Source of the DNA: a virus | Length of the DNA: 21,504 nucleotides | Strand: one strand, 5' to 3' | Virus record (IMG/VR): IMGVR_UViG_3300047157_000119 | Coordinates: 1-21,504 of that record | In this document: in pieces, positions 1-9,073 of the stretch | Layout of the letters: the number at the start of each line of letters is the position of its first letter | Position numbering within the stretch: position 1 is the stretch's first letter | Program-made: the position numbers and the translations under genes | Notes under the pieces: model-generated | Seen by the model: only the letters and a program-made list of their open reading frames with translations | Databases searched by the model: none | What the model was told of the DNA's origin: nothing

Positions 1-42
1 AGTTTTCTCGGTATCGGTGCGAAATCTCAGAAACTTTCTCAG

Positions 43-75
43 AAAAAAATCACAGGAATCAGCTCCATCCCGCGA
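43..75 (-). terminator. Rho-independent terminator of the minus-strand RNA
   Basis: Read on the minus strand, TCGCGGGA (75-68) pairs with TCCTGTGA (57-50) as an uninterrupted 8-bp stem with two G-U pairs and a 10-nt loop, followed directly by seven T (49-43). On the plus strand the same two positions would be A-C mismatches and there is no T-run, so the signal is specific to minus-strand transcription. Confidence 0.65.
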
Positions 76-255
76 ATTTGCCCAGGCTCTCTCACTACTC
101 ATGCGTACGGTACGCTTCCTAGCGTGATAGGGGTTCGCATTTGATTTCGTCTGGAGTTTCTTGCTCCTTCGGTCGGTTCGGAGCGGGTGAAGTTGGAGTA
201 GTAAGAGTAATATCGAGAGAATTCCTATCCAAATACGAATGAGAATCATTCTCAT
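43..255 (-). ncRNA. Candidate Fur-controlled structured small RNA
   Basis: On the minus strand, transcription from the promoter at 290-262 would start near 255 and stop at the T-run at 49-43, giving about 210 nt. Seen folds: an 8-bp 5' hairpin made by the Fur palindrome; a 12-bp closing helix, CTCTTACTACTC (207-196) with GAGTAGTGAGAG (100-89); inside it GCTCC (184-180) with GGAGC (167-163), or alternatively GGAG (167-164) with CTCC (156-153); and a long arm ATGCG/CGCAT (140-136 with 105-101) capped by ACGCT-AGGA-AGCGT (125-112). The arm holds an unpaired C-rich strand, AACCCCTATC (135-126), of the sort that could pair with ribosome binding sites. Three pairs are G-U on this strand but would be A-C mismatches on the plus strand, so the minus strand is the RNA strand. 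Known Fur-repressed sRNAs (RyhB, PrrF, NrrF) spare iron; I see no RyhB core, so any equivalent role is inference. Targets are unknown. Confidence 0.6.
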
Positions 256-256
256 T
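238..256. promoter_or_regulatory. Fur box (ferric uptake regulator operator)
   Basis: AATGAGAATCATTCTCATT is a perfect 9-1-9 palindrome. It fits the gammaproteobacterial Fur pattern TGAnAATnATTnTCA at every fixed position. It lies from about -1 to +18 relative to the start predicted for the minus-strand promoter, where iron-loaded Fur would block initiation. The divergent plus-strand promoter begins 77 bp away, so it is a less likely target. Iron-dependent repression of the minus-strand RNA is inferred. Confidence 0.75.
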
Positions 257-261
257 TAGAG

Positions 262-290
262 CTTATATCATACTTTGGGCCAAATGTCAA
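262..290 (-). promoter_or_regulatory. Sigma-70 promoter of the minus-strand RNA
   Basis: Minus strand: a consensus -35 TTGACA (290-285), a 17-bp spacer and -10 TATAAG (267-262), placing the start near 255, next to the Fur palindrome. The correct spacing and the matching terminator 210 nt downstream support a real transcription unit. Confidence 0.65.
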
Positions 291-333: not shown

Positions 334-362
334 TTGACAATTCATGTTCAGCCCCCTATACT
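334..362 (+). promoter_or_regulatory. Strong sigma-70 promoter for the small-gene operon
   Basis: Consensus -35 TTGACA (334-339), a 17-bp spacer and -10 TATACT (357-362). The predicted start is near 369, ahead of the first phage gene. This is the host-polymerase type expected for early or middle phage genes, unlike the TATAAATA boxes before the structural genes. It is divergent from the minus-strand promoter at 290-262, and the two -35 boxes are 43 bp apart. Confidence 0.75.
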
Positions 363-393
363 AGCTATGTAAACAATGAAAAAGAGAGAGAAA

Positions 394-654
394 ATGACAA
401 AGTATATTGAAGATATTAACAGTATTGGTTTTAACGAACTGAAAGTAAACATGAACTACGAAACAGGAACTAGAGGAGAGAATGCTTGTAGGATAGTGAG
501 TAAAGGTTCAGAACTAGACCAGATGTATGCTAGGACATATCATGAATACTTAAAGAAAACGAGAGAAGAAAGAATCAGAAAAGAGAAAGAGATAGACTAT
601 ACTTTAGGATTCACAGAACAAGAACAGATTGATATAGAGAGAAAATTTGGATGA
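394..654 (+). CDS. Hypothetical phage protein, 86 aa, first gene of the operon
   Basis: I do not recognise this protein. It is soluble and strongly charged, with a Lys/Arg/Glu-rich helical stretch in its second half (KKTREERIRKEKEIDYT) that could form an alpha-helical or coiled segment. I prefer the ATG at 394 over the in-frame one at 376: the promoter predicts transcription from about 369, leaving the upstream ATG almost leaderless, whereas the purine run AGAGAGAG sits just upstream of 394. The stop overlaps the next start as ATGA, so the two are probably translationally coupled. Its place directly behind a strong host-type promoter suggests early expression. Function unknown. Confidence 0.7.
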   Translation: MTKYIEDINSIGFNELKVNMNYETGTRGENACRIVSKGSELDQMYARTYHEYLKKTREERIRKEKEIDYTLGFTEQEQIDIERKFG

Positions 655-2857: not shown

Positions 2858-3058
2858 ATGATAAACTTTATATTATTTGTGACTGTAGTAGTCTTTTGGC
2901 TAGGTGCAGTTTATCTATATTTTGTATTGTCTAATATGCTAGAAGATGTTCGAGAAATCAATAAAGATATAGTCGAATGTAAAGCAATGATGAAACAAAA
3001 AATAGAACAAGACAATATCAAAGCAGAAATACCAAATGATGAATTTCTAGGTATCTAA
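2858..3058 (+). CDS. Membrane-anchored small protein, 66 aa
   Basis: A 66-residue protein with one N-terminal membrane helix, residues about 3-25 (NFILFVTVVVFWLGAVYLYF), followed by a charged helical tail with heptad-like spacing (EDVREINKDIVECKAMMKQK) that may be a coiled coil. AAGAGGT lies just before the start and fixes it. The stop overlaps the oxygenase start as TAATG, so both are probably expressed together. A spanin-like or anchor role is possible but not shown. Confidence 0.65.
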   Translation: MINFILFVTVVVFWLGAVYLYFVLSNMLEDVREINKDIVECKAMMKQKIEQDNIKAEIPNDEFLGI

Positions 3059-3630
3059 TGTCTTTAAAAGAACTATCGAACAATCTTCAAACCGAAGATG
3101 AGTTTCATACATTCGTAAAATCGGAGCGAGTGATACGCAGACCACTATCTTTACACCACTTACATAAAGACATGGCAGACATCATTCGCTCTCACAAATA
3201 CGAAGAAGCAAACAAGTCAAATGTACAAGCATACATGACTAATTATTTTTTACACAAACAACATTCAATCGTGAATGATGTATGTAATGCTGCAATTGAA
3301 ATCGTAAAGAGTATACAAGTGAAAGACCAGAAAGGAACTCTAGATAAATTTTTTACTTTTGATTGTTGGGGTGCAATCTATTCTGTAGATGATTATACCA
3401 AACCCCATACTCATGGCCCTGCATTGTGGTCGTGGGTTTATTATATACAAGTACCTAACAATGCCCCACCCCTTTATTTCTCAGAAGCAAATTTGAGAAT
3501 ACATCCTAAACCAGATGAACTAATACTCTTCCCTGGTCATGTTCTACATGAAGTGCCAACTGCAATAGGCATGTCAGAGGAAAGAATTGTTCTTGCTGGA
3601 AATATCTATCTAGACTATCGGAACATGTAG
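3058..3630 (+). CDS. 2-oxoglutarate/Fe(II)-dependent oxygenase
   Basis: A complete 190-aa protein of the phage 2OG-Fe(II) oxygenase type common in T4-like marine phages. Such enzymes use iron, oxygen and 2-oxoglutarate to hydroxylate a substrate; the substrate of the phage members is not known. The double-stranded beta-helix core is visible: the metal-site strand YTKPHTHG (H117, H119), the strand SWVYYIQVP, then the distal motif ELILFPGHVLHEV (H161 or H164) and ERIVLAGNIY, where R176 fits the 2-oxoglutarate carboxylate site. The first motif reads HxH with no obvious acid two residues on, so the exact iron triad is uncertain. The N-terminal 100 residues are helical and not typical of the core. 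Coupled by TAATG to the membrane-protein gene; the next gene, gp5, has its own late promoter. Confidence 0.8.
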   Translation: MSLKELSNNLQTEDEFHTFVKSERVIRRPLSLHHLHKDMADIIRSHKYEEANKSNVQAYMTNYFLHKQHSIVNDVCNAAIEIVKSIQVKDQKGTLDKFFTFDCWGAIYSVDDYTKPHTHGPALWSWVYYIQVPNNAPPLYFSEANLRIHPKPDELILFPGHVLHEVPTAIGMSEERIVLAGNIYLDYRNM

Positions 3631-3644: not shown

Positions 3645-5100
3645 ATGAACGAAAACTATTTCATGGGCCTCGATGGCTTTGTATGGTTTACTGGTGTTGT
3701 AGAAAATCGTAATGACCCTGCAAAACTTGGTAGAGTACAAGTCCGTTGTTTAGGATACCATACACAAGATTTAAATGATATCCCATCAAAAGATTTACCA
3801 TGGGCTCATGTCATGCACCCTGTCACCGACCCTGCATGCAAGGTATGGGAAACTCACCTAGTTTTCTAACTAGAAGGAACATGGGTAGTCGGATTCTTTC
3901 GTGATGCAAACGAAAAACAACAACCACTTATCATAGGTTCATTACCTGGCATACCAGGTTCAACTGCAGATATGACAGAGGGATTTAATGACCCACAAGG
4001 ACAATACCCATCGGCAGACATTGACCATTCAGGTCATGGATTAAATGAATCAGATGTATCAAGACTTGCAAGAGGACAAGATGCAGAAACTCATGAACTA
4101 TTAATTAATCGTAGAGGTACTCAATGGAAAGAAATACCTACTGCAACCAAACCAGATGTATCAACAGTATCAACAAATTCTAAAGCAGAAACTGCTGGAA
4201 CTTTTGATGAACCACAATCCTCGTAATGTAGAAAAGACTGGTGGGTCAACAGGTGTCTATCCTTTCAATCATGTATACGAATCTGAATCAGGTCATGTGT
4301 CATGAGATAGATGATACAACAGGTGGAGAGAGATTATTAAGACAACATACATCTGGTACCTTATGAAGAAATTGTTGACACAGGTACAAAGACAGTTAAG
4401 GTTGTAGGTGACAACTATGAATTGATTGCTGGTGCATCTAACATGTTATGTGAAAGGAAATATTAATTTAACATGTGACGGAACTAAGAGAGAAAAGATT
4501 ACGGGTGATTATATATTAGAGGTTGGTGGTGACTTCACAAGAAAGATACACAAATCAGAACAAGTTAAGATTGGTGCTGGAGAAGCTGGTGGAAATCTAG
4601 AAGAAGAAATAATTGGTAATCATGGATTTAATATTTCTAATTCTGTATCTGGTGCAATAGGTTCTACAGAGAAAGGTACAGCAAAAGATTGTGATATTAC
4701 TATCGGTGGAAAAGAAACAAGAACGATTGGTGGAACTTATGATATAACTTCTGTTGATAGTTATTCTGTAGTATCTTTAAAAGATGTATTAGTAGGAGCA
4801 AGTAATAATATAACAATGTCAAGTGTTAAAGGAACTTCTATATCTTCTGGTACAACCATGACAGTTAAGGCTGCAACAAATCTAGATATTAAATCAGAGG
4901 CAGTAGGTACAATGACATTCGTTGGTAATTCAAGTGCGATTAGCTTTACAGGTTCATCAGGCACAATTAATCTTTCTGGTTCAGGTAGTACAATTACAAC
5001 TACACAAGAAGTTACTGCGAATACTATTGCACTTACAACTCATACACATACTGATACAGAAGGTCTGGCAGCTAACATAACATCAGCACCTAATACATAG
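3645..5100 (+). CDS. gp5: Baseplate hub spike gp5 (lysozyme-less), frameshifted
   Basis: The trimeric hub and cell-puncturing spike of the tail. The OB-fold start DGFVWFTGVVENRNDPAKLG and VRCLGYHTQDL match gp5 of marine T4-like phages, as does EGTWVVGFFRDANEKQQPLI and GSLPGIPG. From about 4440 to the end is the repetitive beta-prism needle (ITGDYILEVGGDFTRKI and many Gly/Ser/Thr repeats). T4 gp5 has a lysozyme domain between these parts; none is visible here. Frame breaks fall near 3836 (missing A), 3868 (extra A), 4217, 4302, 4363 and 4445, all repaired by one or two bases, so I give the whole span. Because the late promoter leaves no leader for 3645, the in-frame ATG at 3663 (MGLDGFVW) may be the true start. 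Confidence 0.8.
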
Positions 5101-6715: not shown

Positions 6716-7145
6716 ATGTCCGCATATAAAGATGCACAAGCTCAAAATGATATCAGTCGTAATGCCAGACAGTATTCTGATTTAGATTTATTCTTTACTA
6801 AGAAAACTGTAGGTTCTGATGTTAATAAAGTAACTGATATACAAGCAGTTAAGAGGTCATTAAGAAATCTAATAAACTTAAATGCTTTTGAAAAACCATT
6901 CCACCCAGAGATATCTGGTGGGGTTCGTGAATGTTATTTGAAAATATATCACCTATGGTTTCTGCAGTACTAGCTAGAAAGATAGAAGATGTTATTAACA
7001 ACTTTGAACCAAGATGTAGATTAGTATCAGTTAGAGCAATACCTGATTATGATAGAAACATTTACAATGTACAATAGAATTTTATGTAGTTAACGCACCC
7101 ACAGAACTAGTAGACTTATCAGTCATGTTAGAGAGATTAAGATAA
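6716..7145 (+). CDS. gp25: Baseplate wedge gp25, frameshifted
   Basis: About 142 aa, a conserved wedge component of contractile tails (GPW/gp25 domain) that sits next to the inner wedge and helps fix the tube and sheath start. The signature is clear: SDLDLFFTKKTVGSDVNKVT, then DIQAVKRSLRNLINLN, EKPFHPEISGGVRE, and in the next frame LFENISPMVSAVLARKIEDV, INNFEPRCRLVSVRAIPD and the C-terminal LVDLSVMLERLR. Breaks occur near 6934 and near 7072 (GTACAATAG where GTAACAATAG restores TIEF). Its own late promoter lies just upstream. The stop overlaps the gp6 start as TAATG, so the two wedge proteins are co-translated. Confidence 0.85.
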
Positions 7146-9069
7146 TGGCAACAAACGATAAAAGATTAAGAGTAACAGAATTAGACTTTGACAATATTAA
7201 AGATAATTTAAAAACATATTTAAAAGCACAAACAGAATTTAAAGACTATGACTTTGAAGGTTCTGGTATGAATATTCTATTAGATACTCTTGCATACAAT
7301 ACTCACTACTTAGGATTCAATGCTAACATGTTGGCAAATGAAATGTTTTTAGATAGTGCATCACTTCGTTCAAGTGTAGTATCTCATGCAAAAACTTTAG
7401 GTTATGAAACAACATCAGCAAGAGCATCTAATGCTACAATTAATATAAATTTAACAACAAATTCTAATACAAAAACAATGTCGGCAGGTACAGCATTTAC
7501 TACAAGTGTTGACGGAACTGATTATCAGTTTGTACAATTGCTGATGTGACTGCAAGTAATACAGGTAGTGCTGTTCCATTTGATAGTGTAAAAATTTATG
7601 AAGGTAGTTATATTACAACAAGATATACAGTAGATACTTCTGATGTTGACCAAAGATTTTTATTAAGTGATGCTAATAGTGATACTTCTACTTTAACAGT
7701 TAAGATACAAACATCAAGCTCTGATACAACAACTACAACTTATACTAAAGCAACAGACATAACACAACTATCTCAAGTAGCACTGTTTATTATTTACAAG
7801 AAACTGATAGTGGTTTATTTGAAGTTTACTTTGGTGATGGTACAGTTAGTAAAGCTTTATCAGATGGTAATATTGTTATACTACAATATGTGGTTACAAA
7901 TAAAACTTTAGCAAATGGAGCAAGTACATTTAGTTCACCATCAAGTATTGATGGTGTTCAACAATTACAGTTACAACTGTATCAGGTGCAACTGGTGGTT
8001 CTGAAGCTGAAAGTATACAATCAATAAAATTAATGCTCCATTAGATTATGCAGCTCAAGGAAGATGTGTAACAGTAGATGATTATAAAACTTATACTAAA
8101 AAATTATTTGCAAACACTCAAGCAGTTTCTGTTTGGGGTGGAGAAGATGGTAGTTATGATACAAGTACAGGTGTATCATCTAACCCAGAATATGGTAAAG
8201 TGTTTATCTCAATTAAATCTACTACAGGTGAAAATTTAACAACTGTACAAAAGAGTAACTTAGTTCAGCATTTGCTCCATTCAAAGTTGCTTCAATTACA
8301 CCAGTGGTTGTAGACCCAGAAACAACTTATCTAATTTTAAATGTTTCATTTAATTATGATTCAACTGCAACAACATCTACTAAAGATGAGTTAGCAAGTT
8401 TAATATCTACAACTGTTTCTAATTACAACTCAACATGACTTACAAGAATTTAATAGTTCGTTTAGACATTCTAAACTATTAGGACTAATTGATGATACAG
8501 ATACATCTATATTAAATAATACAACTACAGTCACTCTGGGTAAATTTTTTACACCAGTAAGTGAAACATCATCATATAATATTAATTTTAACAATGCATT
8601 TTTTAATCCCCACTCAGGTCATAATGCACTGGTGGTGGAGTAATTGCATCTACAGGATTTTATCTAGATAATAGTACAAAACAGAATACTTTTTTGATGA
8701 TGATGGCTCTGGTAATTTAAGAATTTATTCTTTATCCACTGGTCAAGTAAGAACATATCTAAACTCAGAAGCAGGTACAGTAGATTATACTAATGGTACA
8801 ATTAGTACAACAGCATTATTAATTTCTGCAGTATCAAATGTAGATGGTGCATCATCAACACAAATTCGTATAACAGCAATTCCAAAATCAAATGATGTGA
8901 TACCTGTAAGAAATCAAATATTAGAAATAGATTTAGTTAACACAACAACAGGTGGAACTGTTGATGCACAAGCAACTACAGGTGTGGGATATACTGTTAG
9001 TCAACAGGTACAACTTCAACTACAACTGTATCAACACCTTCATCTACACCAACAAGTTCGGCGTATTAG
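7145..9069 (+). CDS. gp6: Baseplate wedge gp6, heavily frameshifted
   Basis: About 640 aa when the frames are joined, close to T4 gp6 (660 aa). gp6 is a dimer that links the wedges into the inner ring. The N-terminus RLRVTELDFDNIKDNLKTYL, FEGSGMNILLDTLAYNTHY and LGFNANMLANEMFLDSASLR is typical of this family; PLDYAAQGRCVTVDDYKTYT, VWGGEDG and FAPFKVASITPVVVDPET follow further on. The conserved text jumps frame about nine times (near 7537, 7782, 7972, 8035, 8268, 8440, 8622, 8680 and 9003), nearly all repaired by one added base. The last part reads GYTVSSTGTTSTTTVSTPSS to the stop at 9067-9069. No decay of conserved residues is seen between breaks. Confidence 0.8.
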
Positions 9070-9073
9070 ATGA

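Follow-up and report, generated by a model that had tools for sequence, protein, structure and literature searches.

The left end of the window, by which we mean the whole stretch of DNA analysed here (a complete linear virus record and entire IMG/VR contig of 21,504 bases), carries a unit of promoter, Fur box and predicted RNA that adjoins tail genes. We consider it probable that this unit is a divergent promoter owned by the phage and repressed by the Fur protein of its host, that it gives rise to a noncoding RNA, and that it belongs, as one of several sites, to a Fur regulon of the phage. Its features and the related array loci are given in Table 1.

Table 1. Features at the left end of the window, and loci of palindrome arrays in other phages.
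Feature	Position	Strand	Remarks
Conserved block past the T-run (minus-strand sequence CCGATACCGAGAAAACT)	1..17	-	in six of six units; cut by contig end
Hairpin and T7 run, proposed terminator	43..75	-	hairpin only in this contig; T-run conserved
Predicted noncoding transcript (length up to the T-run about 213 nt)	43..255	-	no reading frame conserved in relatives
91-nt core	111..201	-	identical in window, L200 and L201; flanks diverge
Fur box, perfect 19-bp palindrome AATGAGAATCATTCTCATT	238..256	strandless	spans about +1 to +19 in the minus-strand transcript
Sigma-70 type promoter, TTGACA (290-285), 17 bp, TATAAG (267-262)	262..290	-	reads towards contig end
Divergent early promoter, TTGACA-17-TATACT	334..362	+	serves gene at 376; 11/12 consensus bases
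92-aa phage protein, function unassigned	376..654	+	adjoins unit in window, L200, L201, L202 and L272
Array loci	KR233164 (L283 1202, 1559-1826); MN850571 (L279 1509-1614); NC_052657 (L282); PQ438393 (L280)		

The window belongs to a Melnitz-like T4-type phage, as indicated by a T4-type baseplate gene set, whose families are matched by the window genes, and by the Methylophilales phages Melnitz as closest match, which were reached via the gp8-like protein as nearest cultured relatives with 62% identity. On our best reading, the phage carrying the unit is a lytic, marine member of the Melnitz group. Melnitz (Kyanoviridae, T4-like) agrees with the window phage in how its hydroxylase and gp5 genes are ordered, but differs by tRNA genes ahead of gp5 and by the complete lack of Fur boxes in its genome. 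A regulatory RNA of an unusual kind is present in Melnitz, too, where the tmRNA has a glutamine riboswitch (PMC9004378). Near the unit, this phage with Fur boxes encodes an iron enzyme, namely a 2OG-Fe(II) oxygenase (PKHD-type hydroxylase, window 3058-3630). Frameshifts absent from the relatives split several genes of the window, among them the gp5-like and gp6-like genes (3645-4226 and 7145-9073), both of which are intact in the related contig L273. These splits are likely assembly indel errors, so that some small indels between the window and contig L200 may likewise be sequencing errors.

Along the minus strand, the -10 hexamer is followed after 5-6 bases by the perfect palindrome AATGAGAATGATTCTCATT. 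This palindrome is of the 7-1-7 type of the Fur consensus class and overlaps the sigma-70 promoter near the predicted transcription start, the +1 of the minus transcript being placed from the position of the -10. The promoter was missed by a simple promoter scan, which requires T as the final base of the -10.

The unit is present at the same locus in eight contigs, namely the window, L200, L201, L202, L272, L273, L275 and L277. Three of these (L200, L201 and L202) were found with the 92-aa gene and L272 with a profile of this gene, whereas a search for the promoter-plus-box pattern retrieved L273 and L275, and a search with the conserved 3' block retrieved L277; L203, L222, L223, L276 and L278 were discarded as unrelated or chance matches. 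L200, which forms one end of a contig of 123,703 bases, is 96.6% identical to the window over positions 1-993, L201 is 81% identical across the first 1.1 kb, and L202 retains promoter and box up to its contig end. L277 has 84-89% identity with the window along thousands of bases of baseplate DNA. The recurrence of the unit in the same place, and of its junction, in other, independent assemblies excludes an artificial chimera, which the sequence-only reading of this DNA had named as a finding that would speak against its proposal; that the unit belongs to a T4-like phage is supported by the same recurrence.

Across the eight aligned promoters, the box is the best-conserved stretch (98% identity), followed by the -35 and the -10 (96% each), the spacer (81%) and the sequence behind the box (79%). 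Its place is the same in each of the eight contigs, 5-6 bases past the -10 hexamer. Both the minus-strand sigma-70 promoter and the 19-bp Fur palindrome at the predicted start, as claimed in the sequence-only reading, are therefore conserved features of the locus. Only the L202 and L277 sites deviate, by one base each within the 15-mer. In L202 the palindrome is broken, but the Fur hexamers are kept, with an extra hexamer alongside, and the site matches 16 of 19 positions of the E. coli Fur consensus. We interpret this as fitting recognition by a protein and not a hairpin.

The palindrome is, judged by its sequence, a proteobacterial Fur box. The phage site TGAGAATNATTCTCA is the exact G/C variant of the Gram-negative 7-1-7 type Fur box TGATAATNATTATCA, and in 397 Pseudomonadota genomes it occurs at 39 sites, against four for the reversed motif. 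In terms of neighbourhood only, these sites lie near genes for FTR1 iron permease, Fe/Mn superoxide dismutase, FeoB, FeoA-FeoB, Fur and solute-binding proteins. The earlier identification as a Fur site, and with it the name, is justified because the same 15-mer flanks iron genes in Pseudomonadota. The phage copies differ from bacterial Fur boxes in two respects: most of them lie upstream of a promoter and not inside it, and the phages lack a Fur gene. In particular, no gene for a Fur-family protein is present among 10 related phage records, which rejects a phage-encoded Fur and implies that the binder would have to be the host Fur.

The box of the RNA unit, the only one that the sequence-only reading took up, is present as claimed but is one of seven, mostly at early promoters of protein genes. 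The 123.7-kb relative contains seven exact TGAGAATNATTCTCA boxes, which make this the most repeated 14-mer of that genome; the reversed motif has no copy there, and five shuffles of the 124-kb relative yielded no match at two or fewer mismatches. A motif of such quality is not expected by chance. The degenerate motif is absent from eight other related records. At least five of the 11 strict plus-strand early promoters in the 123.7-kb relative are preceded by a box, at a distance of 13-93 bp from the -35; a sixth box stands ahead of a weaker promoter, and one more is situated 86 bp beyond the point where the -35 of a promoter begins. Most of the strict promoters that lack a box stand close behind the preceding gene, with little intergenic DNA in between. 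Among 120 viral contigs retrieved by the exact motif, 22 belong to this lineage and hold 42 boxes. An early promoter follows within 110 bp downstream of 27 of these 42, and 31 of the 42 are situated after a stop codon; as the 22 contigs were selected for holding a box, these counts describe placement and not frequency. Two boxes (G001 48882 and 49012) flank a single early promoter ahead of what reads from the sequence as a probable AAA-ATPase gene. The best reading of this distribution is that the boxes would form a small phage Fur regulon, of which the RNA unit is one member.

The main rival to a regulon, which we regard as rather unlikely, is Fur titration: the boxes would mainly act as decoys that bind host Fur as the phage DNA multiplies and so derepress iron uptake of the host, and the RNA would be a by-product. 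The number and location of the boxes (seven per genome, six of them outside core promoters, some paired), the box arrays of T5-like and Stephanstirmvirinae phages (see below) and the contrast between a poorly conserved RNA body and a box that is the best-conserved element all speak for titration. A pure decoy is disfavoured, however, by the fixed place of the box behind the -10 and by the conserved -35 and -10 in eight of eight contigs, because a decoy would need neither.

We hold it improbable that the palindromes are operators which merely happen to share the Fur sequence and serve a DNA-binding protein other than Fur, either specific to the phage or from the host, for example as sites of a stoperator-like repressor. 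Their positions just past stop codons and upstream of early promoters resemble those of dispersed stoperators, which occupy such positions in some temperate phages. Against this, 14 of the 14 specified bases agree with the proteobacterial Fur box, which flanks bacterial iron genes, and the divergent site of L202 drifts towards the Fur consensus and not away from it.

As to the RNA of the Fur-controlled unit, a minus-strand transcript is likely, and it looks noncoding. The alternative of a minus-strand protein gene (an ORF from 255 to the contig end) was rejected, as the frame is lost; L201 and L273 stop after MRMILI. In the relatives, the predicted transcript measures 199-285 nt to the T-run. 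The 91-nt core is absent from L273, L275 and L277, the bodies of which contain modules of 8 to 24 nt that are common to the window and to one another and stand in changed order. A 39-nt segment of L273 (RNA 56-94) is even inverted in L277 (RNA 92-129; 82%, E 3e-7), with collinear flanks. Constant are the ends of the unit, that is promoter, box, T-run and CCGATACCKAGAAAACT.

The terminator of the sequence-only reading stands in part. A run of six to seven T is conserved at the 3' ends of the units and the hairpin is present in the window, where it alone reaches -10.3 kcal/mol, whereas the matching 3' ends of five relatives fold weakly (-4 to -7 kcal/mol). Likewise proposed was a branched fold with a 12-bp closing helix; it does occur in the window, but it lies near the energy of shuffled sequences and is not conserved. 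Compared with dinucleotide shuffles, the fold energy has a z of -1.7 in the window; for the nearest relatives z comes to -0.1 and -0.4, for L273 to +0.9, and RNAalifold on six units, which are few for covariation analysis, gives nine pairs with almost no covariation. The case for a fixed family of structured small RNAs is accordingly weaker, as neither fold nor conservation of the body supports it.

The unit resembles the loci of RyhB in Enterobacteria and Vibrio and of PrrF in Pseudomonas in having a sigma-70 promoter, a Fur box near +1 and a predicted noncoding transcript of 100-300 nt that ends near a T-run. It differs in its lytic phage carrier, its rearranged RNA body, its unconserved terminator hairpin and the lack of any sequence or covariance match. 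The earlier statement that a RyhB core is absent holds, since neither the RyhB/PrrF core nor Rfam models match; searches of Rfam gave nothing at the gathering score and nothing relevant at a relaxed threshold, and no tRNA, tmRNA or known RNA family was detected. A host homologue of the RNA was likewise not found: scanning 84,980 species genomes for exact 19-mers returned eight chance sites, and BLAST against 369 genomes of one class five matches with E of about 0.004 each, approximately as expected by chance. No homologue occurs in E. coli or phage records, and the RNA core has no complementarity above chance to the phage genome. Of the proposed Fur-controlled small RNA, what persists is a Fur-type unit of the phage; a RyhB-like regulatory RNA is not supported, given a rearranged body and no Rfam match, conserved fold or identifiable target.

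On the minus strand beyond the conserved 3' block, L273, L275, L277 and L204 contain four repeats of the GTGG type, which are spaced at 10-bp steps, are weaker in L204 and are followed by a conserved block CAAGGGGTT...GGA(A/T)ACTCTGTG; this arrangement resembles a protein-binding array. Repeats of this kind, together with a GC-richer body that tolerates inversion, might suggest a replication origin or another cis element, in which the divergent promoter would prime an R-loop and the variable, GC-richer segment would serve as structural DNA. We consider this very improbable, as the GC skew climbs steadily around the genome and does not switch at the locus. Scarcely credible is a role as hairpin elements that would serve the preceding genes as weak intrinsic terminators or form the ends of their mRNAs, because the palindromes, although perfect inverted repeats with A/T flanks directly past stop codons, reach only -4.3 to -8.7 kcal/mol with at most three T directly behind the stem, their stem sequence is fixed without compensatory variation and broken in L202, and at the unit the palindrome marks the start and not the end of the minus transcript.

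Under the preferred reading of a Fur-repressed promoter, iron-loaded host Fur would bind the palindrome at +1 to +19 and shut the minus-strand promoter. Binding and repression are suggested by the sequence identity of the box and by its location at +1, which it shares with the boxes of bacterial Fur promoters. Under iron shortage of the host, or when Fur is diluted by many phage genomes, the promoter would fire and produce a noncoding RNA of about 200-290 nt. We infer that this RNA exists and is derepressed in iron-poor hosts; its role most likely falls into the class of antisense control or sponging, directed at RNA of the host or of the phage. The other six boxes, most of which come after a stop codon and before the next early promoter, would complete a small Fur regulon. 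Several observations count against this reading: the RNA body is conserved in only three phages and has no outstanding fold, the other six boxes lie outside the core promoter, which is unusual for classical Fur repression, and Melnitz, which infects OM43, has no boxes.

Palindromes of this kind are not confined to the marine group. BLAST of a box-promoter stretch against cultured phages gave short matches that led to phages with arrays of Fur-box-like palindromes: T5, the T5-like Salmonella phage NR01 and the E. coli phages nepoznato, muut and J-01. The T5 array (AY692264, L281, 9554-9713) lies inside the annotated injection stop signal; in the control for this array, nine of ten shuffles were without any copy at one or fewer mismatches. 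The T5 scan covered the genome outside positions 60,000 to 113,238. Part of the array of muut is annotated merely as repeat_region. A lone Fur-like palindrome, AATTAGAATGATTCTCATT, occurs in intergenic DNA near the genome end of Vibrio phage ICP1 (MW794151, about 0.79 kb; L284 1201-1219). The T5-like and Stephanstirmvirinae phages share with the marine group that they are lytic and have Fur-box-like palindromes between their genes, but they differ in that theirs form clustered arrays, and the phages are unrelated. It is conceivable, albeit doubtful, that these unrelated lytic phages (marine T4-like, T5-like and Stephanstirmvirinae) independently gained Fur boxes to sense the iron regulator of the host and, by copy number, to disarm it, the noncoding RNA being one of the outputs among the marine phages. 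The arrays make a general use of Fur boxes by phages worth testing.

Marine bacteria are limited by iron. The links between phages and iron proposed so far concern virion iron and receptors (the Ferrojan horse hypothesis, discussed in PMC9305737). A description of Fur boxes in a lytic phage was not found in searches that covered open-licence papers. If the preferred reading is true, early promoters of lytic phages that carry the site of a host iron repressor would constitute a direct regulatory link. Infection could then take a different course depending on whether the cell is poor or rich in iron, and the iron regulon of the host could be altered by the replicating phage DNA itself. The phage may read or disturb the iron state of its host, partly through a noncoding RNA made beside its tail genes.
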